NCBI GenBank assembly: GCA_029266615.1
Contig: JAQSWN010000023.1
Coordinates: 1 to 64,000 of the forward strand
Direction of reading: 5' to 3'
DNA length: 64,000 nt
Origin: Polyangiaceae bacterium
GTDB lineage: Bacteria; Myxococcota_A; Polyangia; Polyangiales; Polyangiaceae
A program made the position numbers and the translations under genes. The notes under the pieces are model-generated. The model did not search any database. It was not told where the DNA came from and was given only the letters and a program-made list of their open reading frames with translations. Shown here one piece after another: positions 24,427 through 54,038 of the stretch. How positions within the stretch are numbered: position 1 is the first letter of the stretch; each line of letters starts with the position of its first letter.

Positions 24427-25314
24427 TTACGGCTGCGCGAGCCGCTTCAGTAGGTGAGCGACGTCCGCCGCCGTCGCGGCTTCCTCTTCCAACTCGGGAA
24501 AGAACGCGCGCGTGACCCGCACGGCGCCGTCACCCGTTCGCAAGCTCAGCTCGGCGGAAATGTGTGCTTCGCCCGGCAATAGCGCGGTCAGATAGTCACG
24601 TTGGGCCTCCGCGCGAGTGACGAACAGCTCGACCCCCTCCACCGAAAGCGCCACACCCGGGGTAGGTGAAAGGGCGCGAACCCTCCGCAGCACCCGCTCG
24701 GTCGTCCAGCCGAAGTCGACGCGCAGCTCGTCACCGCTCGGCTCTGGCGCCCAAGTCACCAGCGCCGGGTCTTGCTCCTCCTCGGGCACGGGCTCACCCT
24801 GGGAGAGTCGCGCGACCGTCGTTCGCAGGACCTCGAGTGATGGGCGGTCCAACGCGCGCGCCAGTTGCCAGGCGTCGCGCGAGCCGACCGGTATGCTCTT
24901 GGCGCCGAGCAGCCTGCCCGTGTCGTACTCCGCTTCGAGCCGATGGACGGTGACGCCCGTCACCGCGTCGCCCGCGTCGATGCTCCAGAAGTAAGGATTG
25001 GGTCCGCGGTGACGCGGCAAAAGCGAGGGGTGCACGCCGATGGCGCCTCGCGGCTGCGACAGCCAACGCGACGGCAGCTTGCGCGTCCAGAACCAGGAGG
25101 CGAGTAAATCTGGCCGCTCGTCGGCGAGCGCGGCGTCTACCTGCTCTTCCAGCTCGGAGCCGAGCGCGCTTGCGTCCAGCAGGTGAGGGTACGCCCGCGT
25201 GAGCCGACGGCGGCCCGGCGCGTCGACCGGCGCGAGCACGACCGGGCCGAGCCGGTGGCCGTCCGCGGCGAGGAGGAGCGCGCCCAGCGGCAAACCGAAA
25301 TACGCGATCTTCAA
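24427..25314 (-). CDS. Formyltransferase-fold protein, catalytic Asn replaced by Gly
   Basis: The 295-residue protein matches the methionyl-tRNA/sugar N-formyltransferase family: an N-terminal Rossmann domain, the folate-site block VHPSLLPRHRGPNP and a DTG motif (D131), then a C-terminal domain. The catalytic triad of the family is Asn-x-His...Asp; here His95 and Asp131 are present, but the Asn position is Gly93 (I-G-V-H). It may therefore be inactive, or use other chemistry. It could also be a divergent sugar formyltransferase. The start is TTG at 25314, supported by a GAGGAGAGG ribosome-binding site; longer frames run over the divergent ftsE start. Confidence 0.8.
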   Translation of the reverse strand: MKIAYFGLPLGALLLAADGHRLGPVVLAPVDAPGRRRLTRAYPHLLDASALGSELEEQVDAALADERPDLLASWFWTRKLPSRWLSQPRGAIGVHPSLLPRHRGPNPYFWSIDAGDAVTGVTVHRLEAEYDTGRLLGAKSIPVGSRDAWQLARALDRPSLEVLRTTVARLSQGEPVPEEEQDPALVTWAPEPSGDELRVDFGWTTERVLRRVRALSPTPGVALSVEGVELFVTRAEAQRDYLTALLPGEAHISAELSLRTGDGAVRVTRAFFPELEEEAATAADVAHLLKRLAQP

Positions 25315-25317
25315 GCG

Positions 25318-25326
25318 CCTCTCCTC
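25318..25326 (-). promoter_or_regulatory. Strong ribosome-binding site fixing a TTG start
   Basis: GAGGAGAGG lies upstream of the TTG at 25314 on the minus strand, with its AGGAG core about six bases from the start. There is no ATG or GTG in register nearby, so this site is the reason for choosing the TTG. Confidence 0.7.
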
Positions 25327-25408
25327 TATCAGTGCCGGGCCGCCGCGGCACGGGGCGGTTCGCAGAAAAGTTTCCCGAAAGGCGCCAGCCTGATTAGCTC
25401 GGGGCGGC

Positions 25409-26206
25409 ATGGAACCGGCTGGCAAAAGTCGTCCGTACCGCCCCGCGCTGCGTGAGGGCGGCCGCTTCGACCCGCTCGCGGCTGGGCGGCCTATCCTCAC
25501 CTTCGAGGACGTTCACAAGTGTTACCGCGTGGACGCGCCGGTGCTCAAAGGCTTGAGCCTGAGCATTGCGCGCGGCGAGTTCGTGTTCGTGACGGGCCCG
25601 TCCGGCGCCGGCAAGAGCACGCTGCTGCGCCTCTTGTATGCCGCGGAGACGGTGGACTCCGGTCGCATCTTGTTTTTGGGGCGAGAGGTGGGGCGGCTCA
25701 CGGACGCCTCAATCCCGTTTTTGCGCCGCAACATCGGCATCGTCTTCCAAGACTTCAAGCTCGTGAAAAACTGGACGGTGCTGGAGAACGTTGCGCTGCC
25801 GCTCGAGGTGCTCGGCCTTCCGGAGCGCCTCGCGCGCGCGAGGGTGGGGGAAGCGTTGGAGCGCGTCGGCCTGGCGGGGCGCGGCTCCGAGCTGGCGGGC
25901 ACGCTTTCCGGAGGCGAGCAGCAGCGCGTCGCCGTCGCGCGCGCCATCGTCGGCGAGCCGGCGCTACTCCTCGCAGACGAGCCGACCGGCAACCTGGATC
26001 CTCAGCTCGCCGTGGACATCCTGGGCCTGCTGGAAGACATCAACGAAACCGGCGTGACGGTCGTGTTTGCCACCCACGACCGGAGCTTGCTCGACATTCG
26101 TCCGCGCCGCGTCGTCGTGCTGGACGATGGCAAGGCGACGGACGTGCCGTCCGGTTTGGACGACATGCTCGAGGCGCCGAGCGATGGCAGCCGGAGGGTG
26201 GCGTAG
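25409..26206 (+). CDS. ftsE: Cell division ATP-binding protein FtsE
   Basis: The 265-residue ATPase is FtsE, which with FtsX forms an ABC-type complex at the division septum that activates peptidoglycan hydrolases. Walker A is GPSGAGKST at residues 63-71, then a Q-loop ([20 protein letters not shown]), the signature [15 protein letters not shown], Walker [13 protein letters not shown] and the switch His in THD. It carries an N-terminal extension of about 28 residues compared with E. coli FtsE. The next gene is ftsX, starting one base into the stop (TAGTG), and then an EnvC-like gene. Confidence 0.96.
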
Positions 26207-30152: not shown

Positions 30153-31292
30153 ATGATTGGCTTCAAAATCCCGTTCAACAAGGCCTCTTTGGAGGGCGAC
30201 GAGATCGCGAACGTGCTGAAAGCGTTCAGCGACATGCACGTCGCTGGAGACGGCGGCTTCACTCGCCAGTGCCACGAGCTCCTGCAGGCTGCGATTGGAG
30301 CCCCGAAAGCGCTGCTCACCACTTCGTGCACCCACGCGCTCGAGATGGCCGCGCTGCTTTTGGATATTCAGCCGGGGGACGAGGTGATCGCTCCCTCTTT
30401 TACGTTCGTGAGCACGGTCAACGCCTTCGTGCTGCGCGGCGCGCGTCCGGTTTTCGTGGACATTCGCCCCGATACGCTCAACCTCGACGAGCGGCAGATC
30501 GAAGCGAAATTGACGGCGAAGACCCGCGCTATCGTGCCGGTTCACTACGCGGGCGTCGGTTGTGAGATGGATCTCATCTGCCGGTTAGCGTCGGCGCGCG
30601 GCATCGCGATCGTGGAGGACAACGCTCACGGTCTGTTCGGCAGTTACAAGGGGCGCAAGCTGGGGAGCTTCGGCCAGTTCTCGACGCTCAGCTTCCACGA
30701 GACGAAGAACATCACCTGCGGTGAGGGCGGCGCGCTGATCATCAACGATTCGAAGTTCGTGGAGCGCGCCGAGATCATCCGCGAAAAGGGCACGAATCGC
30801 AGCCAGTTCTTCCGGGGTCAGGTCGACAAATACGGCTGGGTGGACGTCGGCTCCAGCTACCTGCCGTCGGAGGTGCTCGCGGCCTTCTTGGTCGCGCAGC
30901 TCGAGGTGTCTGAGAGCATCCAGCGTCGCCGGCACGGCGCCTGGTCCCGCTACCAAACGGAGCTCCAGAGCTGGGCGGATGGGCTAGGCGTGGGCCTGCC
31001 GTTCGTGCCGGCTGAGGCAGACCACCCGGCTCACATGTTCTACCTGCTCATGCCGACCTTGGCGCAGCGGCAGGCGTTCATCGCGCACATGTGGGAAGCC
31101 AGGATCGTGACGCCGTTTCATTACGTACCGCTGCACACGTCCCTCATGGGTCGTAAGCTCGGCTACGTGGAGGGTGATTGTCCCATCACGGAAAGCGTGA
31201 GCGACCGTCTGGTCCGCCTCCCGCTCTACGCATCCATCTCGAGCGAGGACCAATCGAAGGTCATCGAACAGGTGTTGGCCTTCCGCGGCTGA
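30153..31292 (+). CDS. wecE: dTDP-4-keto-6-deoxy-sugar 4-aminotransferase (WecE-type)
   Basis: The 379-residue PLP enzyme is close to E. coli WecE/RffA: SCTHALEMAALLLDIQPGDE, then APSFTFVSTVNAFVLRGARP, the PLP lysine K185 in SFHETKN, and EIIREKGTNRSQFFRGQVDK. WecE converts dTDP-4-keto-6-deoxyglucose to dTDP-4-amino-4,6-dideoxygalactose (Fuc4N) using glutamate. The ATG at 30153 gives the conserved MIGFKIPFNKAS N-terminus; an upstream in-frame extension is poor. It stands before an ATP-grasp ligase, GT2 and other sugar-modifying genes, so it probably supplies a 4-amino sugar to that module. dTDP-glucose synthesis genes are not in the window. Confidence 0.92.
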   Translation: MIGFKIPFNKASLEGDEIANVLKAFSDMHVAGDGGFTRQCHELLQAAIGAPKALLTTSCTHALEMAALLLDIQPGDEVIAPSFTFVSTVNAFVLRGARPVFVDIRPDTLNLDERQIEAKLTAKTRAIVPVHYAGVGCEMDLICRLASARGIAIVEDNAHGLFGSYKGRKLGSFGQFSTLSFHETKNITCGEGGALIINDSKFVERAEIIREKGTNRSQFFRGQVDKYGWVDVGSSYLPSEVLAAFLVAQLEVSESIQRRRHGAWSRYQTELQSWADGLGVGLPFVPAEADHPAHMFYLLMPTLAQRQAFIAHMWEARIVTPFHYVPLHTSLMGRKLGYVEGDCPITESVSDRLVRLPLYASISSEDQSKVIEQVLAFRG

Positions 31293-31304
31293 CTCGGCGA
31301 GCTG

Positions 31305-31697
31305 TTACTTGGTGGGTACGAGCAGCGCGGTTCCCGTGATGATCAATACGGCTCCGAACCACATCTTCGGGGTCGGGGCCTCTCCCAAAAGGACCACGCT
31401 CAGGAGGGACACCAGCAAGGCGGAGCCACACGCAACGGTGTACGCGTAGCTCAGGTCGAGCTTGCTCAGGCAGGCCATCCACGCCAAAAATCCGAACCCG
31501 ACTCCTACCGCGAACAGGCCCACTTTCCACAACCGGGAGAGCACGAGGAGCTGCTGCAGCTTGCCCGCGAGTGTCTGCGTGCCGTCCAACTCCGTCATCA
31601 GAGACTTGAGAGCGACTTGCCCGATCGACGAGGACAGCACGGACAGACCGAGGAAGACGTTCCCCCAGAAGAACTTGGACATGGGCATACCAAGCAT
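31305..31697 (-). CDS. Small 4-TM transporter, EmrE/ArnE-like (EamA/SMR fold)
   Basis: The 130-residue protein is mostly four TM helices (FFWGNVFLGLSVLSSSIGQV; LWKVGLFAVGVGFGFLAWMA; YAYTVACGSALLVSLLSVVL; MWFGAVLIITGTALLVP). The SLSKLDLSYAYTV-like segment and LLGEAP loop fit the small multidrug resistance/EamA half-size family, to which ArnE and ArnF (flippase of undecaprenyl-phosphate-aminoarabinose) belong. Three in-frame ATGs (31697, 31688, 31682) are candidate starts. It lies convergent to the WecE-like gene, inside a module whose other parts also resemble Arn proteins, so a lipid-linked sugar flippase role is inferred. Confidence 0.85.
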   Translation of the reverse strand: MLGMPMSKFFWGNVFLGLSVLSSSIGQVALKSLMTELDGTQTLAGKLQQLLVLSRLWKVGLFAVGVGFGFLAWMACLSKLDLSYAYTVACGSALLVSLLSVVLLGEAPTPKMWFGAVLIITGTALLVPTK

Positions 31698-31861
31698 AGT
31701 GCAGTGGCCGTGAGCGGCGAGCCGCGCCGTTTGCCGGCCACGTGGCCAGGAAACCACTGATGTGTCGTGAAGCGCTCGATGTCGTGGCGCATTTACTTTA
31801 CCCTCCGCGCAGGCGGTGCGGGACAAACCAGCGCCGCCTTGATCCCGAGGCTCACGTCGAC

Positions 31862-33070
31862 ATGACGAAAACGGTGCTCTTTCTCGGCGGCTCCAACCAG
31901 CAACTTGCTCCCATCGAGTACGCGAGGCGGGCCGGCTATCGAGTCATTACTTGCGACAACCGACCGGAGAGCCCTGGGCACGTGCTTGCAGACCGGTATC
32001 ACGACGTCAGTACGACGGATATGGCTGGTGTCCTGCGCGTCGCCCGCGAGGAGCGGGTAGACGCTGTCGTTTGCTATGCCTCGGACGTCTCCGCACCCAC
32101 CGCGGCCTACGTCGCGGAGCAACTGCAGCTGCCGGGCAATCCGTTGGCCTCGGTCCGCACCCTGACGGACAAGGCACAGTTTCGTCAGTTTCAAGCGGCG
32201 CACGGTTACTTCGTCCCGCGCCATTTGGCCTTCGCCGAAGCCCAGCTCACGGACGAGGCCGCCGCTTCGGCCACGGTCGCCGAGGCACTGCGCCTGCCAG
32301 TCATCGTCAAGCCGGTGGACGCGAGCGGCAGCAAGGGAGTCACCAAAGTGCGCCGGCCCGAGGAACTGGTGCCGGCCATGCGCAATGCCGTCGGCTATTC
32401 ACTCACTCGTACGGTGATCGTCGAGGAGCTGATTGTCGCCGAGGGTTACCAAGTCTGCGGTGAAGGATTTTTGCAAGATGGTCAGATCGTGTTCCAGGCG
32501 TTCGCCAACGAGCACTTTTGCCCTGACATCGTGGTGCCCGTCGGCGAATCCTTCCCGTCAATGTTCGACGACGCGCAGGTGGCGAAAGGCGTCGACGTCC
32601 TGCAGAGCATATTTTCTCGGCTGGGTATGCGTCAGGGGCCCTTCAATTTCGATCTGATGTTTACCCCCGAGGGCGAGGTGTTCGTCATCGAGATCGGTCC
32701 TCGCAACGGAGGCAATCGTATGCCCGAGGCCATCCGCTACGCCACCGGTGTGGACACGATCGCGGCGACCGTGGAAGGGGCCCTCGGTCTGAGCTTCGAT
32801 TTGTCCAAGCGGACGAATTTCTTCTACGCGACCTACTCCGTGCACGCCAAGCGAGACGGGACCCTGACGGCTATTCACTATGCTCCCGAAATCCGAGCGC
32901 GGATCGTGGACGAGCTGACTTTCGTCATGCCGGGGCAGCCGGTGAAGCGATTCAACATGGGCAGCTTGATGCTGAGTAACTTGATTCTCGCCTTTGATAC
33001 ATACGCGGAGATGCTGTCGACGTTGGACCACATGGATGACTACGTCACCGTCGACATCGAAGGAGCATGA
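31862..33070 (+). CDS. ATP-grasp carboxylate-amine ligase-like protein
   Basis: The 402-residue protein has the ATP-grasp order: N-terminal preATP-grasp Rossmann-like domain (TKTVLFLGGSNQQLAPIEYA), central ATP loop (PVIVKPVDASGSKGVTKV, about residues 142-159), and C-terminal metal site FNFDLMFTPEGEVFVIEIGP followed by RNGGNRMPE. Family members join a carboxylate to an amine or thiol with ATP. Context suggests attachment of an amino acid or acyl group to an amino sugar, since a WecE-type aminotransferase is near; this is inference. ATG at 31862 is chosen because the N-terminal fold starts there. GC content (35 of 60 in the sampled line 32401-32460) is a little below the window average. Confidence 0.87.
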   Translation: MTKTVLFLGGSNQQLAPIEYARRAGYRVITCDNRPESPGHVLADRYHDVSTTDMAGVLRVAREERVDAVVCYASDVSAPTAAYVAEQLQLPGNPLASVRTLTDKAQFRQFQAAHGYFVPRHLAFAEAQLTDEAAASATVAEALRLPVIVKPVDASGSKGVTKVRRPEELVPAMRNAVGYSLTRTVIVEELIVAEGYQVCGEGFLQDGQIVFQAFANEHFCPDIVVPVGESFPSMFDDAQVAKGVDVLQSIFSRLGMRQGPFNFDLMFTPEGEVFVIEIGPRNGGNRMPEAIRYATGVDTIAATVEGALGLSFDLSKRTNFFYATYSVHAKRDGTLTAIHYAPEIRARIVDELTFVMPGQPVKRFNMGSLMLSNLILAFDTYAEMLSTLDHMDDYVTVDIEGA

Positions 33071-33188
33071 GGTTGCCCGCGCGTCCTCGCCCGTGTCGCA
33101 CCGACGGTGTCGAGCCGACTCGCATTTGCGCGGTTAGGTCCGCGCTGCTAACTTCGCGTGCATCTGCACGAATGGCTCGCGAAGTCTG

Positions 33189-34196
33189 ATGTCTGCGCAA
33201 GGTGTCCAGCATCCTCCCGCGGTGGGCGCGGGGGAGGTGGTGTCGCTCTCGATCGTCGCGACGCTCTACCGTTCGGAGCCGTACGTAGTCGAGTTCTGCG
33301 ATCGCGCCGCCGCCGCGGCCCGCGCCATAGGCAAGGACTTCGAGATCATCTTGGTGAACGACGGCTCGCCGGACGGCGCGCTTCGCGTTGCCAAAGAGTA
33401 CGCAGACGTGCACCCCGAGGTGACCGTCGTCGACTTGTCTCGGAACTTTGGTCACCACCAGGCGATGATGGCGGGCCTCTCCCACAGCCACGGCTCGCTC
33501 GTCTTCCTCATCGACAGCGACCTGGAAGAAGAGCCGGAGTGGCTGATCGACTTCTCGAAGAAGCTCTCCGAGAGCGGGGCCGACGTCGTCTATGGCGTGC
33601 AAGCGGCGCGCCGCGGGGGGCTCTTCGAGCGTGTTTCGGGCTACCTGTACTACGTAGTCGTCCAGGCCCTTACCGGCTTGCCGATCCCTTCCAACCTCGT
33701 CACGGCACGCTTGATGACGCGGCGTTACGTGGATGCGCTCACCCGCTTCGAGGAGCGGGAGATTGACATCGCAGGGCTCTGGGCGCTCACGGGTTTTCTC
33801 CAAGTCCCTCACACGATCAAGAAGCATTCGACGAGCGCGACTACGTACACACTCGCTCTCAAAGTGAGGTTGCTCATCGACTCTGTGTCATCCTTTAGTA
33901 GCGCCCCTCTGATTGGCATCTTCTACTTCGGAGTGCTCGTCTCGGCGCTCGCGGGGCTGTTCCTGTGCTACCTGATCTTGAATCGTTACTTCTTGGACAC
34001 GCCGTTGAGTGGTTGGACCTCGGTCATGGCGTCCGTCTGGCTCCTCGGGGGGCTGCAGATTTCGTTCATCGGCGTCATCGGCATCTATCTGGCCAAGGTG
34101 TTCACGGAGGCGAAGCGGCGGCCGAACACCATCGTCCGCGAGATTTATGCGCAGCCGCAAACGCGGGCGAAGAGTGAGAGTGCAAATGCCGAGTGA
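33189..34196 (+). CDS. Polyprenyl-phosphate glycosyltransferase-like GT2 (ArnC/GtrB type)
   Basis: The 335-residue protein has the GT2 catalytic domain (LSIVATLYRSEPYVVEFCDR; VNDGSPDGAL at about residue 57; DSD metal site in LIDSDLEEEPEWL, about residue 110) and two C-terminal TM helices (APLIGIFYFGVLVSALAGLF; VWLLGGLQISFIGVIGIYLA). This is the order in ArnC, GtrB and DpmA-like enzymes, which move a sugar from a nucleotide carrier to undecaprenyl phosphate. It overlaps the following methyltransferase by 11 bases. It is likely to lipid-link the sugar built by its neighbours. Confidence 0.9.
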   Translation: MSAQGVQHPPAVGAGEVVSLSIVATLYRSEPYVVEFCDRAAAAARAIGKDFEIILVNDGSPDGALRVAKEYADVHPEVTVVDLSRNFGHHQAMMAGLSHSHGSLVFLIDSDLEEEPEWLIDFSKKLSESGADVVYGVQAARRGGLFERVSGYLYYVVVQALTGLPIPSNLVTARLMTRRYVDALTRFEEREIDIAGLWALTGFLQVPHTIKKHSTSATTYTLALKVRLLIDSVSSFSSAPLIGIFYFGVLVSALAGLFLCYLILNRYFLDTPLSGWTSVMASVWLLGGLQISFIGVIGIYLAKVFTEAKRRPNTIVREIYAQPQTRAKSESANAE

Positions 34197-34833
34197 CTAT
34201 TTTACGCGCTACGAGGCGCTGCTAGCCGAGGTCAAGGCGTTCAACGGCGAGCAGCTGGACGAGCACGGCATCACGCCCCAGGGCGTGGGGTGGAATAGCG
34301 TGGAGGCTCAGGTCGTACGGTTCGACCAAGTGCTGAAGGTCCTCCCCGCCTGCACCGAATCCGTCGTGTCCTTGAATGATATCGGCTGCGGCTACGGCGC
34401 CCTACTCGACTACCTCGCGGAACGCGGGCAGAGCGTCGACTACCGGGGGTTCGAGGTGTCAGAGCGGACCCTGGCACGCGCCAAGTCGCTCCACGTGGAG
34501 TCGCCGACGTGCTCGTTCAAGCCGCTCGAAGAGCTCTCGCCGGCAGACTATTCGGTCGCGAGCGGTATCTTCGGTCTGAGCTTCTCGCACAGTGACGAGG
34601 CTTGGCACCGCTACGTGCTGGATACGCTGGATCTGTTCGACCAAAACAGCTCCAAAGGCTTCGCTTTCAACATGCTCACGTCCTACTCGGACGAAGACAA
34701 GAAGCGGAGCGAGCTGCACTACGCGGACCCTTGCGTCATCTTCGACCTGTGTAAGCGTAAGTTCTCGCGGAACGTCGCGCTCTATCACGACTACTCCCTG
34801 TTCGATTTCACGATCGTAGTCAGGAAGGCGTGA
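34186..34833 (+). CDS. SAM-dependent methyltransferase (class I)
   Basis: The 215-residue protein has the class I methyltransferase glycine loop LNDIGCGYGALLDYL (about residues 64-78) and the acidic strand end VDYRGFEVSE where SAM ribose is held. It would methylate a hydroxyl, amine or carboxyl of the neighbouring pathway's product. ATG at 34186 is inside the 3' end of the GT2 gene (11-base overlap). A much longer in-frame extension exists but lies within the GT2 gene in another frame and is rejected. Confidence 0.85.
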   Translation: MPSDYFTRYEALLAEVKAFNGEQLDEHGITPQGVGWNSVEAQVVRFDQVLKVLPACTESVVSLNDIGCGYGALLDYLAERGQSVDYRGFEVSERTLARAKSLHVESPTCSFKPLEELSPADYSVASGIFGLSFSHSDEAWHRYVLDTLDLFDQNSSKGFAFNMLTSYSDEDKKRSELHYADPCVIFDLCKRKFSRNVALYHDYSLFDFTIVVRKA

Positions 34834-34840
34834 GGCTGTC

Positions 34841-35767
34841 GTGACGCCCCCGCTGAGGGTGATCCTGACTGCCGATATCGGTCCGGCCGCCGCTGTGCTC
34901 GGGGCCGGGCACACGACGGACAGCCGTTGGGAGGAGACGCAGTCCGGACTCGCTGTCAGCACCGAGGTGCTGCGATCCATTCAAGACCGCTTCCAGGTCG
35001 CCTTGCCAGTGACCTGGTTCATTCGGGCGGACCGGCTGATTTTGCAGCAGTTCGGAGACCGCTTGGCGATTTTCGACATGTTCGCGGACTTCACGCAGCA
35101 GGCGCTGAAAGACGGGCACGAGGTCGGCTGGCTTCCGCAGGTCTACGGAGGGGGCGACGCCGGAATAAGCTACGAGGACTTGTCGACGACGCACGGAGCG
35201 CTCACGAGGGCCGCGCTGGCGCCCCGAAGCGTGCGCATGGGCAATTGCTTTCACGACAATCGCACGATGGCGATCCTCGACGAGCTAGGAGTGCGGAGCG
35301 ACAGCTCCGCCATCCCGGGGCGAACGAAGGACGACCTCGGCTGGCGTATGGATTGGACCGGCACGCCCGCGGCGCCGTACCACCCGGCCGTCGCCGACTA
35401 CCGAGCTCCAGGAGCTCCGCAGCTAGGCATCTTGGAAGTACCGCTGACGGTGCGTCCGCTCAAAGCTCCGTACGACCAGGCGCCGCTGCTTCGCTACGTG
35501 AACCCTTGCATGCATCGCGAGTTTTTCGGCCAGAACTTGGGCGAGATCATCGAGTCTAGGTCGTACTTGCTCTGCATCTTCCACCCGGACGAAGCGGTAC
35601 CACCGCGGAGTGGGAACGGACACCCGCTCGTCGCGTACGCGAAGGAAGAGCTCGCTTTCAACCTGGCGCAACTGTTCGCCCTCGCCGACTCGGCAGGGCG
35701 CGCGGTCACGTTCCACACGCTCGAGAGCTTCTCACGCACGGCCGTTGCCGACGCGTCGTGTCGCTGA
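34841..35767 (+). CDS. NodB-like polysaccharide deacetylase homologue, metal site degenerate
   Basis: The 308-residue protein has a deacetylase-like beta/alpha barrel pattern: LTADIGP at residues 9-15 (position of the NodB TFDDG motif, one Asp kept), ALPVTWFIRADRLI (strand 2), DGHEVGWLPQVYGGG (position of the HxxxH zinc motif, which is absent), RMGNCFHDNRTM (the R-P-P-Y-like motif 3 region), SDSSAIPGR, and LLCIFHPDEAVPP (last motif with His). Canonical NodB zinc ligands are not all present, so it is either a different deacylase or binding protein. In the Arn pathway the same position is held by ArnD. Start is GTG at 34841, seven bases after the methyltransferase stop. Confidence 0.75.
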   Translation: MTPPLRVILTADIGPAAAVLGAGHTTDSRWEETQSGLAVSTEVLRSIQDRFQVALPVTWFIRADRLILQQFGDRLAIFDMFADFTQQALKDGHEVGWLPQVYGGGDAGISYEDLSTTHGALTRAALAPRSVRMGNCFHDNRTMAILDELGVRSDSSAIPGRTKDDLGWRMDWTGTPAAPYHPAVADYRAPGAPQLGILEVPLTVRPLKAPYDQAPLLRYVNPCMHREFFGQNLGEIIESRSYLLCIFHPDEAVPPRSGNGHPLVAYAKEELAFNLAQLFALADSAGRAVTFHTLESFSRTAVADASCR

Positions 35768-35774
35768 CGTCGTA

Positions 35775-35792
35775 TCCACGCTCCCGCGTGGA
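35775..35792. terminator. Hairpin between convergent genes
   Basis: TCCACGC-TCCC-GCGTGGA is a perfect 7-bp stem with a 4-base loop, placed 7 bases after the deacetylase-like stop and 2 bases before the end of the convergent oxygenase gene. On the plus strand a TATTTAT-like A/T stretch follows. It could end both transcripts. Confidence 0.6.
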
Positions 35793-35794
35793 AG

Positions 35795-36589
35795 CTATTT
35801 ATCGAGATCGACGGAGTTGGCGACGTTGGGGTTGTCGAACAGCTTGTTCACGGCCAAAAGCGCCATCCAGCGTCCTTCGAACGAGAGCCAGTCTTCTTTG
35901 GCGTCCGGATCGATGCGCAGGACCCCGTGCGGGATCTGCGAGTTGTAATAGATGATGTCGCCTTCATCGGCATAGTCGTCGAGAATGTATTTCTCGCCGT
36001 CATACCTTTCGATGAAGGCGCCGCCTTCTTGGAAGTGCTTGCCCTTCTTCGAACACACCACGATCGGTAGCGCCAGTTGGTGCTCGTCCGTCGAATCACG
36101 GTGCTTGTTCAGCTCCCCAATACCTTTGGGATAGAACTGGAAGGCGACTCTGGCGATGCAGTTGTCGTCTGCCTTACGACCCAGGAACTTGGTTTTCGAA
36201 TAACCGTTGAGCGTGTTTTGCGCGTGGAAGATTTTCTCGAACATCACGAAAAAGTCGAAGAAGTCCTGGTTCCACGGGAAGAACGCGAACTGGTGAAAAC
36301 AACCCTTCACGTAAGAACGCTCGTCGATGCGGTTCAAGCGATGGAAATTGGGGCAGGACTGCTCGAGGCGCTGGTAGTTGGGTAGCGAGGCGCGTCCAAC
36401 GCCCGCCAAGTAGTCGCGAATCTTGCCGATCGTCTCGCGGGGGACGTAATTCTTCACGATGAACGCGTCGCCATCGCGAAGCTGCTGGCGCATCTCCGCG
36501 ACTTGGTCCGCATCATCCGCGATGCGGTCGTGGCCCTTCAAGACATGCAGTTTCCCCGAAAAAGCGGGTCTTTCGACAACCGTGCTCAT
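35795..36589 (-). CDS. Fe(II)/2-oxoglutarate-dependent oxygenase (phytanoyl-CoA dioxygenase-like)
   Basis: The 264-residue protein has the 2OG-oxygenase facial triad: H163-R-D165 in NKHRDS and a distal H221 in SQIPHGVLRI, with an Arg nearby (R225) able to bind 2-oxoglutarate. Such enzymes hydroxylate, desaturate or epimerise using O2. Base composition is unlike its neighbours: lines 35941, 36121 and 36181 have 27, 32 and 28 G+C of 60, against 36 (line 1921) and 43 (line 10141) elsewhere. This suggests recent transfer. It lies opposite the sugar-module genes, ATG with an AGAGAGA site upstream. Substrate unknown; a sugar or its acyl decoration is the contextual guess. Confidence 0.87.
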   Translation of the reverse strand: MSTVVERPAFSGKLHVLKGHDRIADDADQVAEMRQQLRDGDAFIVKNYVPRETIGKIRDYLAGVGRASLPNYQRLEQSCPNFHRLNRIDERSYVKGCFHQFAFFPWNQDFFDFFVMFEKIFHAQNTLNGYSKTKFLGRKADDNCIARVAFQFYPKGIGELNKHRDSTDEHQLALPIVVCSKKGKHFQEGGAFIERYDGEKYILDDYADEGDIIYYNSQIPHGVLRIDPDAKEDWLSFEGRWMALLAVNKLFDNPNVANSVDLDK

Positions 36590-36903
36590 GATCTCTCTTT
36601 AGCTTCTTTATGGTCCATAGCAAACGCTCCAATCGAGAGCGGCGCGAATGTCATGAAGGAGCCTCGCCACTGGCGCATCGACGCTCGTAGAGCCTCCGGA
36701 GCGCTCGAACCATCCCCTTCCGCCGCCAGTCTCGGCATGAGAGGACGAGCCCGAACCGGACCAAGTCGCCGAACGTCAGGGCTTTCCACGAAACGCTGAC
36801 GGAGCGGTCGGAGCGCCCCTCGCCGGACGCGAATGAAAGACCATGTAGGTAAAGGTGTCTGTGCTCGTGCGAAACGCATGCGCGGATGAAGCCCGTTCGC
36901 GAG
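36590..36903. other. Gene-free stretch, 314 bases
   Basis: This lies between the start of the oxygenase gene (minus strand) and the stop of the membrane-protein gene (minus strand). It must hold the oxygenase promoter. I see no supported reading frame, no clear hairpin and no repeat. Confidence 0.5.
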
Positions 36904-38643
36904 TCAACGGCAAGCGCCGCTCCGCCTTGCCGGCGGCTCCAGGATCTCGAAAAAGTCGTTGCTCCACGTCCGTTTGTAATCGTGCTCTCGTAGAAAGGCT
37001 CCGATTACCTTGCGCACTCTCCGCTGAACGGTGCGCTTCTCCAAGCCGCGAGGATTTTGCGGCCACCCCGCTCCGCGCGTGCTTTGGCGCGTCGAAACGA
37101 CGACTGGCAAGCAGCCGGTGCGCCTCGGCGCCGCGGCTGCGATACGTTTTATCTCGGTTGCCGACTCGGCCGCGCCCATGAGCCAGGCGCGGTTGAGGTA
37201 GGGGCGGGTGCGGGTCAGGTACTGGAGGAGAGGAGTGCCCTCGTAGGCAAGCAAGTAGTCGCCCGGCGCGACGCGTTGCTTGAGCGCCTGCAGGACCTCC
37301 GTGACTACTTTTGCGCGCGCGGGGGTGGTGAGCTGAGCGCGCAGTTGCCGGTCGCGGACACGCGCGACGAGCTCGATGCGAGGCGCGTCGCGATAGGTGT
37401 ACGTCGCCGCCCGGTGTAGACCTTCGCCGCCGAGCACCAAGCCGGCGATGACCGCAAGCTTTGGTCCTTGCCCGACTAGCCACTTGGCGTGGACCGAGCC
37501 GATCACGGAGAGCACGAGCGGCAGCGCTAGCCACAGACCCACGTGCGCATTCAGGATGCCATTGTTGCTGCCCAGCGGCGCGATGACGAGCACGACGAGC
37601 GCGACGAAAGCGTGGGCGCGCAGCTCCGAGCTTCCGCGGCCGAGTCCCAACACGACGCCGCCCAGCAGCCAGTACGCGGTACCCGGTACGACGACGCTCC
37701 AAAGCTCGTCCGTGCCGGAGAGACCGTACCCTCCGAGCGCGGAGACCACTGCGATCAGTAACCAGCCGACTCGCTTTGGAAGCACCGCCAACGCGCGTGC
37801 CAACACAGTGCCGGCCGCGCACGTCCCTAGCCCCCAGGCCAGCGCGCGCGCGTTGTCGCGGAAGAAGCTGACAATCAGCTTGTCCGTCCCGTAGCCGGCG
37901 TCCTCCATACCCGGCGCGAACAGATCTTTGATTGCCTGGAAGAAGAGCGGCGAGTGCCCCAGCGCGTGGATTAGTGACAGCATACCGGCGACTCCCAGCG
38001 CGACCCCTCCCAACATCACCGCCAAGTCGCCGACGAGCCGCTTGCGGCGTGGCGCCTCGAGGAGCGCCCCGAGCACGGGCGCGGCCAAGAGCGCGACGGC
38101 GAGCACGTTCGGAATACGCGCGAACGGAAGCACACCGATGAGCGCGCCAGTTGCCAGCAGCAGCGAGCGACGCTGGAGGGCGATGCCGCCAACCAAGCAC
38201 GTGGCCGTGCCGACAAATAGGACGGAAGACGACGTGTTGTACGAAAACCAGGTTTCGCGGCGATCGCTCAAGAACACGCTCGCGGCAACCAAAGCGAGGC
38301 TGGCCGCACGCTCGCTGCTGACGCGTGCCACGAGGCGGAACGACAGCAGCAGACCGACGGAAGAGCAGGTCGCCCACAGGGCGCGCATCCCGACCACGCC
38401 GAACCTCCCCCAGACCCAGTCCCACACCGCTCCGACGAAGCTCGTGAGCCAGAACGTGCCCGCGTCTGGCGTCGTCTCAGGGTACCGCAAGAAGCAGCGG
38501 TACGTCGTAAGGAGGTAGCCTTGGTCGGTGAAGTCCAGCCCCTGCCAGATGAATAGCCACGGCACGATGAGGGCCAGAGCCAGGAGCGCTTCCGTGGTTC
38601 GGTCAGGCTTGCGAGCGTCCATGGCGAGGAGTCGCAGCCTCAC
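36904..38643 (-). CDS. Multi-pass membrane protein, GT39/ArnT-like glycosyltransferase fold
   Basis: The 579-residue protein has about 11-12 hydrophobic segments in its first 430 residues (ALLALALIVPWLFIWQGLDF; LWATCSSVGLLLSFRLVA; LAVMLGGVALGVAGMLSLIH and others) then a soluble C-terminal domain. The first loop after TM1 has DFTDQGYLL, the place of the acidic DxD/DE residues in GT-C lipid-linked sugar transferases such as ArnT. It may transfer a sugar from undecaprenyl phosphate to an acceptor outside the inner membrane. The start GTG at 38643 overlaps the upstream GT2 stop (GTGA); ATG at 38622 is an alternative. Acidic motif identity is not certain. Confidence 0.78.
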   Translation of the reverse strand: MRLRLLAMDARKPDRTTEALLALALIVPWLFIWQGLDFTDQGYLLTTYRCFLRYPETTPDAGTFWLTSFVGAVWDWVWGRFGVVGMRALWATCSSVGLLLSFRLVARVSSERAASLALVAASVFLSDRRETWFSYNTSSSVLFVGTATCLVGGIALQRRSLLLATGALIGVLPFARIPNVLAVALLAAPVLGALLEAPRRKRLVGDLAVMLGGVALGVAGMLSLIHALGHSPLFFQAIKDLFAPGMEDAGYGTDKLIVSFFRDNARALAWGLGTCAAGTVLARALAVLPKRVGWLLIAVVSALGGYGLSGTDELWSVVVPGTAYWLLGGVVLGLGRGSSELRAHAFVALVVLVIAPLGSNNGILNAHVGLWLALPLVLSVIGSVHAKWLVGQGPKLAVIAGLVLGGEGLHRAATYTYRDAPRIELVARVRDRQLRAQLTTPARAKVVTEVLQALKQRVAPGDYLLAYEGTPLLQYLTRTRPYLNRAWLMGAAESATEIKRIAAAAPRRTGCLPVVVSTRQSTRGAGWPQNPRGLEKRTVQRRVRKVIGAFLREHDYKRTWSNDFFEILEPPARRSGACR

Positions 38644-39431
38644 ACGCGTCGGAACGCGTCGAATCCCTCGGCGCTGCGCCGCCAGAGAGCCTTCTCCCGC
38701 CACAGCGTCAAGTAGCCAAGCGCGGTGCGTGCGACTTTCATCTTGCTTTTGCCCGCGCGTCGGGACGTATCCAGCTTCATGGCGACTTCCGACACGCTCA
38801 TGCGCAGGTAGACGATTTTGAGGAGCAGCTCGATCATGCTCTCGAAGCCGCTGCGGTCGATGATTTCCGGGCCGAACGCGGCCTGCAGCCGCATGAAGGC
38901 TGAGCCGCGGTAGAGCCGGAAGAACGAGCTCATGGTCACGATGCCGTGAAGGCCCAGGCCTTCCTTGACGAACACGTTCGCTACGTGGCTCAAGAAGACT
39001 CGGTAGGCATTGGTGTTGGAGATGCCGCCTCCGTACAAGTACGGGCTCGCCAGGACGACGTCGAATCCTTCGGCCGCGCGCGTCATCATCTGCTGGAGGA
39101 GCTCGAGCCGGGAGGTGTTGTCACCCTCGATCGTGACGACCCAGTCCGTTTCGCGAAGCTGCGGCGCGAGGTGGCGGAAAGCGGCGGCGAAAGCGCGACC
39201 CGGGCCTTGGTTGACCGACAGACGCAGCACCTCTAGCGGCAGGCCTCCCGCGGCCTGCTTTGCGGCCTCGCTCGTGCCGTCGGTGCTGCCGTCGTCCACG
39301 AGGACGAACCGGACCGCGTGGCGCGCGCCGAGCTCGCGGTGGATGTCGGAGCAGGCGTCGAACAGGCGGTCCATGTTCGCCGCCTCGTTGAACACGGGCA
39401 CGACCACGAACAGCTGCTGCAGGTCAGACAT
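38640..39431 (-). CDS. Family 2 glycosyltransferase
   Basis: The 263-residue protein is a soluble GT-A enzyme: MSDLQQLFVVVPVFNEAANM at the N-terminus, VDDGSTDGTSE at about residue 45, and IEGDNTSRLELLQQM (metal site region) at about residue 100; no TM segments. It resembles DPM1-like transferases without a membrane tail. ATG at 39431 overlaps the upstream epimerase stop by 8 bases, and its own stop overlaps the GT39-like gene start, giving a three-gene minus-strand operon (40425 to 36904). Confidence 0.9.
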   Translation of the reverse strand: MSDLQQLFVVVPVFNEAANMDRLFDACSDIHRELGARHAVRFVLVDDGSTDGTSEAAKQAAGGLPLEVLRLSVNQGPGRAFAAAFRHLAPQLRETDWVVTIEGDNTSRLELLQQMMTRAAEGFDVVLASPYLYGGGISNTNAYRVFLSHVANVFVKEGLGLHGIVTMSSFFRLYRGSAFMRLQAAFGPEIIDRSGFESMIELLLKIVYLRMSVSEVAMKLDTSRRAGKSKMKVARTALGYLTLWREKALWRRSAEGFDAFRRV

Positions 39432-40425
39432 GCGGTAGGTCCGGCGTGGCGATGCCGAGCGCGCGGCGCCGCTCGACCTGCCAGCGAATCGTGCGCCGAA
39501 GGCCGTCCTCGAGGTCCACCTTTGGCTCGAAGCCGAGCAACGTGCGCGCACGCGTGATGTCCGGCACTCGACGCATCACGTCTTCGTACTTACCGAACGA
39601 CTCGTAAGGACGAAGCTTGATTTTCGGTGTCTCCCCTGGCCGGACCATGCCCCAAATCAGCTCGGCCAAGCCCCGGATGGTGATTTCGCGGGTGTTGCCG
39701 AGGTTGAACACCTTGTCGTCCGCCTCCGGCATCTCCACGCAGCGGGTGATGCCGTCGACGTGATCCGACACGTAGGTGAAGGAGCGAGTTTGGGAGCCGT
39801 CCCCGTGCAGCTCGAGCTCTTTGTCGTCCAGCGCGCTGTCGATGAACACGGATTGCGGGCCGCCCCACCACGTGAGGTTTTGGTTCGGCCCGTAGCCGCC
39901 GAAGAAACGCATTGCGACGACGCGGAGCTGATGACGATCGCGGAACGCGAACATCGTCTGCTCTTCGTACATTTTCGAGATGGCGTAGGCCCAGCGTTTC
40001 ACGTCCGGGTTGCCGATCACCAGGTTCGAATCCTCCGTGAACGGCACGTTCGGGTTTTTGCCGTACACGTCCGAGGTCGACGCCGCGACGAACTTGGCGC
40101 CGACGGTCAGCGCCGCCTCCAGCATGTTCTCCGACCCGTGAGCGTTGGTGCGCAGTGTATCCAGCGCGTCCGAGTAGCGAGGAATCTTGTACGCGGCCAG
40201 GTGGACGACCGCGTCGCAACCGGTGACGAGCCGCCGCATCGCGGCCGCGTCACGAATGTCTTCCTGGTGGAATTCGTACGCCGGGTGCTCGGCGAAGCTC
40301 GCCATATTCAGGCGCTCGCCTTGGGACAGGTTGTCCACGCCGACGACGGCGTGGCCCCGTTCTAGGAGGGCGTGGGTCAGATTGGAGCCGATGAAGCCCG
40401 CGACACCGGTGACGAGCAACCTCAC
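39424..40425 (-). CDS. NAD-dependent sugar epimerase/dehydratase (extended SDR)
   Basis: The 333-residue protein has the extended short-chain dehydrogenase features: GVAGFIG (GxxGxxG NAD loop, residues 7-13), ASTSDVYGK (substrate Ser/Thr strand), the catalytic Y-A-I-S-K at about residue 147, and RFFGGYGPNQ. These are shared by UDP-glucose 4-epimerases and nucleotide-sugar dehydratases. It probably changes a sugar nucleotide for the neighbouring GT2. The precise substrate cannot be read. It is the first gene of its operon after 145 non-coding bases. Confidence 0.9.
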   Translation of the reverse strand: MRLLVTGVAGFIGSNLTHALLERGHAVVGVDNLSQGERLNMASFAEHPAYEFHQEDIRDAAAMRRLVTGCDAVVHLAAYKIPRYSDALDTLRTNAHGSENMLEAALTVGAKFVAASTSDVYGKNPNVPFTEDSNLVIGNPDVKRWAYAISKMYEEQTMFAFRDRHQLRVVAMRFFGGYGPNQNLTWWGGPQSVFIDSALDDKELELHGDGSQTRSFTYVSDHVDGITRCVEMPEADDKVFNLGNTREITIRGLAELIWGMVRPGETPKIKLRPYESFGKYEDVMRRVPDITRARTLLGFEPKVDLEDGLRRTIRWQVERRRALGIATPDLPHV

Positions 40426-42521: not shown

Positions 42522-43616
42522 ATGAAGATCCTGACCGTCGTCGGCGCCCGGCCGCAGTTCGTAAAAGCCGCTACCGTGAGCGCGGCCATCGCTGCTCACA
42601 AGAAGCGCGGCGCAGATTTGGAGGAGGTGATGGTGCACACCGGTCAGCACTACGACCCGAACATGAGCCAGATCTTCTTCGACCAGCTGGAGGTGCCGCG
42701 CCCCAAGTACAACCTCGCGGTCGGCTCCGGCTCACACGGCGCCATGACGGGCAAGATGTTGAGCGCGATCGAGCAAATCTTGGTCGACGAGAAGCCACGC
42801 TGGCTTTTGGTGTACGGCGATACGAACTCCACGCTGGCGGGCGCATTGGCGGCGGCCAAGTTGCACGTGCCGGTGTGCCATGTGGAGGCCGGCTTACGCT
42901 CGTTCGACAAGGGAATGCCGGAGGAAGTCAACCGTATCCTCACCGATCATGTTTCGGAGCTGCTCCTGTGTCCGACCCGAGCCGCGCTCGTGAACCTAGC
43001 GAACGAAGGAGTGACGCGCGGGGTGCACCACGTGGGGGACGTCATGTATGACGCCGCGCGGATGTTCGCGCGGGCCGCCGACGCTCCCGCACATGTTCTC
43101 TCTCGATACGGTGTCGCCGCGGGTCGCTTTCAGCTCGCAACCGTGCATCGCGCCGAGAATACGGACGACCCACGACGCTTGGAGGGCATCATGACCGCGC
43201 TTTTTGCGCTGGCCAGTGAGGCGTGCCCGGTGCTCTTGCCGCTCCACCCTCGGACTCGCGCCATCCTCGGAAGCGCGGGCCTTTGGCCGCTGTTCGAGCG
43301 AAACCCTGCGCTGAAGGTCGTGGAGCCGGCGCCGTTCCTCGACATGATCGTGCTGGAGCAGCAAGCCAAGCTCATCCTCACGGACTCCGGGGGCGTCCAA
43401 AAGGAAGCCTACTTCCACGGCGTCCCTTGCATCACCTTGCGGGACGAAACGGAGTGGGTCGAGACGGTGGCAGCCGGCTGGAACCAGCTGGCAGGAGCCG
43501 ACAGCGCGCGTATCCAGGAAGCCGCCGCCGTCGCCAAGCCGGGCCACGTCATCGACGAGTACGGTGACGGCAATGCGGCCGCCAAAGTCGTCGAGCTACT
43601 CCTCGCGCCGAGTTGA
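42522..43616 (+). CDS. wecB: Non-hydrolysing UDP-sugar 2-epimerase (WecB/WbpI family)
   Basis: The 364-residue enzyme begins MKILTVVGARPQFVKAATVS and has HTGQHYDPNMS, LVYGDTNSTLAGALAAAKLH, HVEAGLRSFDKGMPEEVNR, and DSGGVQKEA, all typical of the two-Rossmann-domain 2-epimerase family. WecB converts UDP-GlcNAc to UDP-ManNAc; WbpI does the equivalent on UDP-GlcNAc3NAcA. The ARPQFVKA, MPEEVNR and TNSTLAGALAAAKLHVP segments look more WbpI-like than E. coli WecB. With WbpE-, WbpB- and WbpD-like genes at 51-54 kb, a WbpI role is likely. ATG at 42522. Confidence 0.93.
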   Translation: MKILTVVGARPQFVKAATVSAAIAAHKKRGADLEEVMVHTGQHYDPNMSQIFFDQLEVPRPKYNLAVGSGSHGAMTGKMLSAIEQILVDEKPRWLLVYGDTNSTLAGALAAAKLHVPVCHVEAGLRSFDKGMPEEVNRILTDHVSELLLCPTRAALVNLANEGVTRGVHHVGDVMYDAARMFARAADAPAHVLSRYGVAAGRFQLATVHRAENTDDPRRLEGIMTALFALASEACPVLLPLHPRTRAILGSAGLWPLFERNPALKVVEPAPFLDMIVLEQQAKLILTDSGGVQKEAYFHGVPCITLRDETEWVETVAAGWNQLAGADSARIQEAAAVAKPGHVIDEYGDGNAAAKVVELLLAPS

Positions 43617-51282: not shown

Positions 51283-52371
51283 TCAGCCCAGCGACTTCTT
51301 CACGGCTTCCACGACCTTGTCTTGGTCCGCTTCGCTCAGGTAGGGGTGCATCGGCAGGCTGATGACCTCCCGCGACGCCTTCTCCGACTCGGGCAGCGTA
51401 CCCCACGCGGAGGTCCCCGCGAACACCGGCTGCTCGTGCAGGCACTTCGGGTAGTATACCGCGCTCGGAATTCCCGCTTCCTTGAGCTTGGCGCCTAGGG
51501 CTTCGCGGTCCTTCACCCGGATCGTGTATTGCGCGTAAACGTGCGTGTTGCCGGCCATGACCTCCGGCACGACGCACACGTCGCGCAAGAGCTCCGAGTA
51601 ACGAGCGCCGATACGGTTGCGCTCCGCGACCTCCCACTCGAAGTGCGGCAGCTTGCCGAGGAGCACGGCTGCTTGCAGCGTGTCGAAGCGGCCGTTGGTT
51701 CCCACCATGGTGTGGTGGTGGCGCTTTTCGCCGCCGTGGGTGCGAATCGCCTTCATTTTACCGGCGAGCGCGTCGTCGTTGGTGAACAGCGCGCCGCCGT
51801 CGCCATAGCAGCCGAGCGGCTTGGCGGGGAAGAAGCTCGTGCTGCCGATGAGCGTGACGCCGCAGCTGCGTTGACCATTCTGCGTCGCGCCGAAGCTCTG
51901 CGCGCCGTCTTCGATCACGGGGATCCCGTGCTTCTGCCCGAGCGCATTGATGGCGGCGTAGTCCGGCATTTGGCCGAACAAGCTCACCGGCATGATGGCT
52001 TTGGTGCGCGGCGTGATCGCCTGCTCCACCTTGCTCACGTCCAGATTGAATCCGACCGGCTCGATGTCCACGAAGACCGGCTTGGCGCCGACCACGGGGA
52101 CGACCTCCGCCGAGCTGATCCACGTGAACGCGACCGTGATGACTTCGTCGCCCGGCCCGATGCCGAGCGCGCGCAGCGCGATCTCCAAGCTGTGCGTGCC
52201 GCTGGACGTCGTGATGGCGTGCTTGACGCCGACGTAGCTAGCGAGCTGCTTTTCTACCTCCGCGATTTCCGGACCCATGATGAACGCTCCGTGCTCCAGC
52301 ACGGCGTTCATGCGGCCTTCGATCTCGGCCTTGTACTTTTGATGCGGGGTCTTGAGGTCGATGAACTGCAT
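51283..52371 (-). CDS. wbpE: DegT/DnrJ/EryC1 sugar aminotransferase (WbpE/WlbC-like)
   Basis: The 362-residue PLP enzyme has MQFIDLKTPHQKYKAEIEGR, TSSGTHSLEIALRALGIGP, FTWISSAEVV, DGAQSFGATQNGQ and the PLP lysine K184 in FFPAKPLGCYGDGGA, all of the sugar-aminotransferase family. WbpE/WlbC makes UDP-GlcNAc(3NH2)A from the 3-keto acid made by WbpB-type dehydrogenase. The next gene upstream encodes WbpB fused to WbpD, and a WbpI-like epimerase is at 42.5 kb, which together fit the UDP-ManNAc3NAcA route. Two-base gap (TGACCATG) to the fusion gene. Confidence 0.9.
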   Translation of the reverse strand: MQFIDLKTPHQKYKAEIEGRMNAVLEHGAFIMGPEIAEVEKQLASYVGVKHAITTSSGTHSLEIALRALGIGPGDEVITVAFTWISSAEVVPVVGAKPVFVDIEPVGFNLDVSKVEQAITPRTKAIMPVSLFGQMPDYAAINALGQKHGIPVIEDGAQSFGATQNGQRSCGVTLIGSTSFFPAKPLGCYGDGGALFTNDDALAGKMKAIRTHGGEKRHHHTMVGTNGRFDTLQAAVLLGKLPHFEWEVAERNRIGARYSELLRDVCVVPEVMAGNTHVYAQYTIRVKDREALGAKLKEAGIPSAVYYPKCLHEQPVFAGTSAWGTLPESEKASREVISLPMHPYLSEADQDKVVEAVKKSLG

Positions 52372-52373
52372 GG

Positions 52374-54038
<1,665 letters not shown>

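Follow-up and report, generated by a model that had tools for sequence, protein, structure and literature searches.

The question raised by the locus

How is a 4-amino sugar acylated on its way to a lipid carrier when the gene set at hand resembles the Arn pathway and yet has an ATP-grasp ligase where a formylating enzyme would be expected? The question is raised by eight genes within positions 30153-38622 of a stretch of 64,000 nt (contig JAQSWN010000023.1 of assembly GCA_029266615.1, from a Polyangiaceae bacterium), referred to here as the window. The source genome comprises 8.88 Mb in 444 contigs and is rated 98.2% complete, with 7.04% contamination. An initial annotation, made from the sequence alone, had listed the eight genes; each was re-read, and all are present, with slightly corrected starts:

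30153-31292, plus strand: WecE-type dTDP-4-amino-4,6-dideoxygalactose (Fuc4N) transaminase (NCBIfam, over cut-off)
31305-31682, minus strand: SMR/ArnE-ArnF-like small membrane protein, candidate flippase subunit (EamA)
31862-33070, plus strand: ATP-grasp carboxylate-amine ligase, proposed to N-acylate (aminoacylate) the 4-amino group (PF13535; relatives 4dim and 3vot)
33189-34196, plus strand: ArnC/GtrB/PgfS-type family 2 glycosyltransferase (GT2), candidate polyprenyl-phosphate Fuc4N-acyl transferase (PF00535)
34186-34833, plus strand: S-adenosylmethionine-dependent methyltransferase (weak class-I methyltransferase matches)
34841-35767, plus strand: NodB-like protein of CE4 fold that lacks the usual motif-2 histidines (3qbu and 3rxz match in fold)
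35795-36589, minus strand: Fe(II)/2-oxoglutarate (2OG)-type oxygenase, proposed to hydroxylate the acyl group or the sugar (HxD...H...R motif)
36904-38622, minus strand: GT-C-like polytopic membrane protein, candidate transferase to an extracytoplasmic acceptor (eight hydrophobic segments)

The GT2, methyltransferase and NodB-like genes form a tight tandem: the 3' end of the GT2 gene overlaps the start of the methyltransferase gene, and the NodB-like start falls 8 bases past the end of the latter.

I consider it probable, at somewhat better than an even chance, that this module produces N-acylated Fuc4N linked to polyprenyl phosphate and exports it, with the acyl group kept and an acceptor other than lipid A as its destination. 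RmlB, encoded elsewhere in the genome, would supply dTDP-4-keto-6-deoxyglucose, which WecE would aminate to dTDP-Fuc4N. The ATP-grasp ligase would convert an amino-acid-like carboxylate to an acyl phosphate and then join it to the 4-amine, after which the ArnC-like GT2 would load the product onto polyprenyl phosphate. Either the acyl group or the sugar would be trimmed by the methyltransferase and the oxygenase. Flipping of the lipid-linked sugar would fall to the SMR protein, and its delivery outside, to something other than lipid A, to the GT-C protein.

The identity of the sugar

The transaminase passes both NCBIfam cut-offs for WecE (NF008687, 562.1 bits against 375; TIGR02379, 519.5 bits against 434.85), as its initial description as a WecE-type 4-aminotransferase would have it, and the two solved structures nearest to it, 6blg and 4piw, belong to entries for dTDP-Fuc4N transaminases. 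Its score with the ArnB model NF008658 is 210.8 bits, far from the 631 that would mark a UDP-Ara4O aminotransferase. By the transaminase model, the sugar of the module is predicted to be dTDP-Fuc4N, not UDP-Ara4N, which makes the core of the module a cross between the route to enterobacterial common antigen (ECA; WecE) and the Arn route (ArnC, ArnE/F, GT-C). RmlB is found over cut-off on another contig of the source genome, so the substrate of WecE can probably be made.

The module shares with the Arn pathway (ArnA-F, ArnT) a 4-aminotransferase, a presumed N-acylation, a presumed ArnC-type transfer to polyprenyl phosphate, a candidate SMR-type flippase subunit and a GT-C-like protein. It differs in its predicted dTDP-Fuc4N in place of UDP-Ara4N, in its ATP-grasp ligase in place of a formyltransferase, in a CE4 protein that lacks the usual histidines, and in residing in a genome with no match to LpxC or LpxB. 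The WecE/WecD steps of the ECA route have the sugar in common with it, and relatives of the module have WecD-like GNATs in the position of the ATP-grasp gene; the amide of the module, however, would come from an ATP-grasp ligase, and its lipid carrier and export are Arn-like.

The acylating position beside WecE and ArnC

None of the eight module proteins matches the formyltransferase family (PF00551) or the GNAT family (WecD type) in Pfam. The nearest formyltransferase-like gene lies outside the module, at 24427-25500 on the minus strand, 5 kb before WecE and beside a gene with a PilZ domain; it scores 74.5 bits with PF00551, below the fmt equivalog cut-off.

What occupies this position in related bacteria was surveyed in 282 genomes of the phylum, 41 of which carry WecE (TIGR02379, E <= 1e-100) at 42 places. 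Forty of these were tabulated, leaving out the window and G025 (a match at a contig end); ArnC was counted up to 8 kb away, and an acylating gene up to 2.5 kb from either WecE or ArnC, using profiles built for the analysis. At the 26 places with ArnC, the position holds a GNAT (11), an ATP-grasp of the module family (4, one of them the doubtful member L152), a putative other ATP-grasp (1) or a formyltransferase (1; PF00551, 82.9 bits), and no acylating gene was found at the other 9. At the 14 places without ArnC there are two GNATs and none found at 12, several being on short contigs. For each of the four GNATs scored (L150, L158, L160, L167), the NCBIfam model that fits best is WecD, the dTDP-Fuc4N acyltransferase, at 37.6-96.3 bits and so below the cut-off of 219. 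Two kinds of capping gene occur together in none of the phylum loci. GNATs and a formyltransferase thus fill in relatives the slot that is filled here by the ATP-grasp gene, which supports the initial proposal that the ligase stands in place of the formylating enzyme.

One WecE and ArnC locus of the phylum (L147:2787-7624, in G186) contains a divergent ATP-grasp-like gene (by eye), methyltransferase-like and TenA/PqqC-like genes (the latter by eye) and a homologue of the 2OG protein. The ATP-grasp-like gene scores 19.1 bits in Pfam against a cut-off of 19.8 and has no firm PDB or NCBIfam match; the locus may represent another answer to the same problem.

Recurrence of the gene set

The initial annotation had named beforehand what would speak against it: that the genes are never found together elsewhere. 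They are found together. The WecE, ATP-grasp, GT2, methyltransferase and NodB-like genes lie in the same order and on the same strand in Ancylobacter amanitiformis (L036) and in two Advenella species (L037 and L038), at 46-64% identity. An SMR gene flanks the set on one side or the other, and A. alkanexedens has RmlA, RmlB and RmlC-like genes nearby, according to the inspected translations. The methyltransferase, whose match to PF08241 is barely over cut-off (21.3 bits against 21.2), has counterparts in the same position in the three loci (58%, 49% and 49% identical, respectively), in keeping with its initial assignment.

A broader view comes from a scan of 84,980 named species genomes with a five-member profile of the ATP-grasp family (A1), which gave 94 relatives, 80 of whose loci were kept. 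By tblastn, WecE and ArnC both accompany the ATP-grasp gene at 24 of the 80, a rate biased by the choice of profile members; WecE alone is present at 8, ArnC alone at 8, another DegT transaminase without ArnC at 24, and neither at 16. When profiles with a distance limit are used instead, ArnC accompanies WecE at 23 loci. ArnC lies within 300 bp of the ATP-grasp gene at 18 of the 80.

Among the 282 phylum genomes, a search with the ATP-grasp protein of the window as sole query returned nine at E <= 1e-30, the source genome included. WecE is within 10 kb at four of the nine places (the window, G205, G124 and G171); in G250, ArnC adjoins the ATP-grasp gene and WecE is on another contig; and the remaining four have neither, three of them on stretches shortened by contig ends. 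ArnC-type matches of 42-44 bits in L030 were left uncounted. In G124 and G171, which are two species of one genus, ArnC and the ATP-grasp ligase form a single open frame of 735 and 736 amino acids, with no internal stop.

In a maximum-likelihood tree of the ATP-grasp family (84 rows: the window, 79 of the 80 named loci and four unnamed ones, L097 having been dropped for a main match of under 800 bases), the window protein falls together with those of Ancylobacter and Advenella (100/100). The presence of WecE with ArnC requires 15 changes on this tree, at least 10 of them forced by well-supported branches, as compared with a mean of 23.7 when the labels are shuffled, and no shuffle of 500 was as low. 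The association of the three genes is old or repeated, and not one recent event.

Members encoded next to sugar transaminases come from methanogens as well as from many bacterial phyla. Archaeal members are L090, L094, L095 (Methanolobus) and L079, with a DegT transaminase directly upstream in three of the four (not L095). Among 72,556 plasmids, seven carry a member (E <= 1e-30): six from Brachyspira hyodysenteriae, of 32-34 kb and with a protein 38% identical, and one from Bacteroides finegoldii.

Proposed transfer to the lipid and export

The GT2 protein matches Glycos_transf_2 (PF00535) at 89 bits and has two hydrophobic segments. Its best NCBIfam matches, both below cut-off, are PgfS (NF047588, 142.9 bits) and ArnC (NF007986, 115.9 bits, where the equivalog cut-off is 529), so that the initial ArnC/GtrB-type label stands as a statement of homology. 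The SMR gene can be read from 31826, with the ATG at 31682 a likely start. Its product passes the Pfam cut-off for EamA (32.7 bits against 28.2), and its best NCBIfam matches are ArnF (27.4 bits, cut-off 99) and ArnE (22.4 bits), both far under cut-off, as is the Advenella counterpart with ArnF (51.8 bits). The protein had been described as ArnE-like with four transmembrane segments; only two segments pass a crude hydropathy scan.

Does the GT2 gene belong with the ligase at all? The ATP-grasp set might instead make a modified dTDP-sugar for a cytoplasmic glycosyltransferase of O-antigen or exopolysaccharide synthesis, with the ArnC-like GT2 serving a separate system of the glucosylation type. 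Such an arrangement would suit a window that is a polysaccharide cluster, with further glycosyltransferases, WecB, a Wzx-like protein (by eye) and a second transaminase, and it would also suit the 24 named loci where the ATP-grasp gene is accompanied by another DegT transaminase without ArnC, within 300 bp in 13 cases. Against it stand the fusion of ArnC to the ATP-grasp ligase, their proximity at 18 named loci and the ArnE/F-like gene found in several of the same neighbourhoods, and I regard it as unlikely.

The same DegT-paired loci bear on the order of events. Both of the transaminases tested from them score best with DesI, below its cut-off. These loci, which lack ArnC, suggest that the nucleotide sugar is what the ligase acylates, ahead of transfer to the lipid.

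The fate of the acyl group

In the Arn pathway as the initial annotation recounted it, the amino sugar is protected, transferred and deprotected, and the annotation allowed that the acyl group is either a temporary protection of this sort or is kept and decorated. The NodB-like protein, placed by it in the role of ArnD, is the obvious candidate for deprotection. The protein has no sequence match in Pfam, NCBIfam or PDB, its profile found only chance matches among PDB sequences, and none was found in viral contigs. In a fold search of PDB with its AlphaFold model (mean pLDDT 67, pTM 0.75), deacetylases occupy the top six ranks (TM-scores 0.37-0.61), led by HP0310 and further enzymes of the polysaccharide deacetylase kind. 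The site in motif 2 reads GW[LM]PQ in all four module members, two of which are near-identical Advenella copies, and GWHHH in a homologue at L020 (G264), where NodB-like, ATP-grasp, two DegT, short-chain dehydrogenase/reductase (SDR) and methyltransferase genes are clustered; these positions I read, from the CE4 motifs, as those of the metal histidines of CE4 enzymes. The protein therefore resembles ArnD in fold but lacks the usual motif-2 histidines of an ArnD-type CE4 metal site, and its comparison to ArnD survives to that extent. Five of the 282 phylum genomes have a match to it, the source genome included, and only one of the other matches is strong.

Nor are other deacetylases common in the vicinity. 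Within 10 kb of the ATP-grasp gene, Pfam deacetylases (PF01522) are found at 4 of the 24 loci with WecE, ATP-grasp and ArnC, some of which are on short contigs, and they are adjacent at none: L036 has a weak match at ~5 kb, L037 and L038 have matches at ~8-9 kb, and L109 at ~5 and 8 kb. The missing histidines and the rarity of nearby deacetylases indicate that the acyl group is probably retained on the sugar, not removed, so that of the two branches offered initially the kept and decorated acyl group fits better.

The classical logic would have the ligase add a temporary acyl group, the NodB-like protein remove it after lipid transfer, and free Fuc4N be attached outside. A CE4-fold gene does sit in the modules of the window, Ancylobacter and Advenella, and the two Advenella loci do have a deacetylase some 8-9 kb away. 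Given the altered motif and the scarcity of deacetylases just described, I have rejected this scheme and would put its chances at only about one in eight.

The acyl donor

The ATP-grasp protein matches ATP-grasp_4 (PF13535) at 41.6 bits (cut-off 27), and the residues K149, E276 and N284 (initial Met uncounted), which I take to be catalytic, are invariant in all five and in all 20 of the proteins aligned; its initial identification is secure. When a profile of the family was run against PDB, the top match was the uncharacterised 4dim (214.9 bits), followed by the L-amino acid ligase BL00235 (3vot, 128.8), carbamoyl-phosphate synthase (113.6), the L-amino acid ligase 4wd3, BacD (72.1) and PurT (68.9). 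The closest characterised relatives are L-amino acid ligases, which suggests an amino-acid-like donor. The domain LAL_C2 (PF18603) is found in 10 of 20 members (E <= 0.01, Pfam), a hand-chosen sample consisting of the window protein and 19 of the 80 named, and 13 of the 20 match the Pfam family of sugar-transfer associated ATP-grasp proteins at the same threshold, the window protein with 20.6 bits against a cut-off of 31.4. The module ligase is set apart from BL00235 and BacD, related to it through their solved structures, by its ties to sugar transaminases and a lipid-phosphate glycosyltransferase.

At four loci of gut Clostridia, a second ATP-grasp gene lies beside the first (L053:11216-13408, L058:11155-13365, L067:11023-13365 and L082:7442-9856). 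Both of those scanned (L053 and L067) combine LAL_C2 with a fused pyridoxal phosphate (PLP)-enzyme domain (PALP, PF00291); inspection indicates a PLP-enzyme fusion in L058 as well, and L082 has two ATP-grasp domains in one frame. The fusions suggest that the amino acid to be attached is made in-house in gut Clostridia, where the donor, which I infer to be amino-acid-like, would perhaps be a non-standard one.

PurT models and structures are also among the matches of the window protein (NF006766, 56.3 bits; 1kj8), which raises the prospect of a PurT-like ligase that formylates the 4-amine with formate and ATP. The higher scores of 4dim and 3vot, along with LAL_C2 in half of the members sampled, make this very improbable.

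The oxygenase, the GT-C protein and the acceptor

The 2OG protein has no family match in Pfam or NCBIfam, the window protein alone has no relevant PDB match, and its profile finds only chance matches among PDB sequences. Even so, H163, D165, H221 and R240 (HxD...H...R) are invariant in the six proteins aligned, and on these residues, presumably the iron-binding triad and the 2OG-binding arginine, the initial call of an Fe/2OG oxygenase holds. Four of the 282 phylum genomes have a match. A homologue adjoins the ATP-grasp gene in L024 (G156), and homologues of 48-51% identity lie in WecE/ArnC/ATP-grasp loci of two metagenome-assembled genomes (MAGs), one of Melainabacteria and one of Halobacteriovoraceae. 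These two loci (L048:7413-13496 and L083:7459-11992) are parallel clusters with an extra oxygenase-like gene, the L048 copy resembling ectoine hydroxylase below cut-off, an unnamed gene of ~310 amino acids between the 2OG and ATP-grasp genes, and another gene that in L048 weakly matches amidohydrolases.

The polytopic protein has no Pfam or NCBIfam match, and its initial attribution to GT39 finds no family to rest on. The GT-C part of the attribution fares better: in a fold search with a low-confidence model (pLDDT 48), five of the first seven PDB matches are GT-C enzymes (ALG9, ArnT, PglB twice and OST-A) and the other two are chains of translocon complexes, no E-value being under 0.001, which is a hint that the protein is of the GT-C type. 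Homologues of 23-25% identity adjoin the ATP-grasp gene in Labilibacter (L099, opposite strand) and in a Prevotellaceae MAG (L101, same strand), at loci lacking WecE and ArnC.

The initial annotation had carried the pathway through to lipid A. No match to LpxC (PF03331) or LpxB (PF02684) was found in the source genome, and the same searches succeed in 4 and 6, respectively, of 14 controls, Escherichia coli among them. Lipid A is consequently an unlikely acceptor here, even granting that the assembly is incomplete and partly contaminated, and I have rejected it. The source organism may lack lipid A.

Points on the other side

Several observations weigh against a single pathway of the kind proposed. 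The SMR, GT-C and 2OG genes of the window run opposite to the other module genes. LAL_C2 is not detected by Pfam in 10 of the 20 members, the window ATP-grasp protein among them. The five members of profile A1 were preselected, four from WecE loci and one from an ArnC locus, which is the source of the bias in the rate of 24 in 80, and 16 of the 80 loci have neither a transaminase nor ArnC, some of them on short contigs. In L057 the ArnC matches are only weak. L039, titled as a Ruminiclostridium MAG, matches Advenella DNA at 96% identity across 7.8 kb and is probably contamination, hence no independent case. L152 has a very long branch in the tree and is of doubtful membership in the ATP-grasp family. 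Finally, the acylating slot is not strictly exclusive, 3 of 32 named WecE loci having two kinds of gene (two with GNAT and ATP-grasp, one with formyltransferase and ATP-grasp).

A chance gathering of genes in polysaccharide islands, with no joint pathway, would explain the use of both strands and a GC content in the module that is lower than in most of the remaining window, as in mobile sugar islands, but it is scarcely credible and was rejected, considering the gene order conserved in three named species, the gene fusion, and an association spread over the tree and yet clustered on it.

Neighbouring genes

An SDR gene and a second GT2 gene (38640-40425) lie upstream of the minus-strand 2OG and GT-C genes, and the coordinates suggest that the four are near enough for a single transcription unit. 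Farther on, at 42522-43616 and 51283-54038, are WecB (over cut-off), the second DegT transaminase and a fusion of Gfo/Idh and hexapeptide acetyltransferase domains. In its make-up this set resembles the Wbp/Wlb pathway, which leads to a UDP-2,3-diacetamido sugar.

Relation to described systems and significance

Iyer et al. (2009), in their work on ATP-grasp amidoligases, reportedly predicted such enzymes in surface polysaccharide clusters. A literature search, which left most subscription journals outside its reach, found nothing joining ATP-grasp with Fuc4N, 4-amino-4,6-dideoxyglucose (Qui4N), ArnC, WecE, or undecaprenyl phosphate plus aminoarabinose, and none that brought ATP-grasp together with amino sugar, glycan, amide and ligase. 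The nearest tested likeness is by description, not by sequence: SfmE (SO_3265), encoded by an ATP-grasp gene that shares an operon for the flagellin glycan of Shewanella oneidensis with a methyltransferase gene. The glycan carries a methylated moiety, and deletion of sfmE shifts the flagellin mass, slightly less than deletion of the remaining genes does (PMC3765264). That system, as described there, puts a nonulosonic acid on flagellin and has no tie to WecE or ArnC (PMC3765264). In the wider literature searched, including passages of PMC3765264, PMC9933511 and PMC12419801, nothing was recognised as the module.

A more general proposal can be put forward tentatively, at rather less than even odds: that there is a widespread, undescribed route in which an ATP-grasp enzyme of the L-amino acid ligase type charges dTDP-Fuc4N (dTDP-Qui4N in relatives) with an amino acid, the sugar then being built on polyprenyl phosphate, flipped by ArnE/F-like proteins and delivered to surface acceptors. 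Ligase and lipid loader would be one protein in some lineages, and in gut Clostridia the PLP enzyme that makes the amino acid would be joined to a second ligase.

Fuc4N or Qui4N bearing amide-linked amino acids or hydroxy acids is found in many bacterial glycans, and the enzymes known to make these amides are, to our knowledge, few. The ATP-grasp family described here is a concrete candidate for them. The module, if it works as proposed, would add an Arn-like system that keeps a decorated acyl group and has a target other than lipid A.

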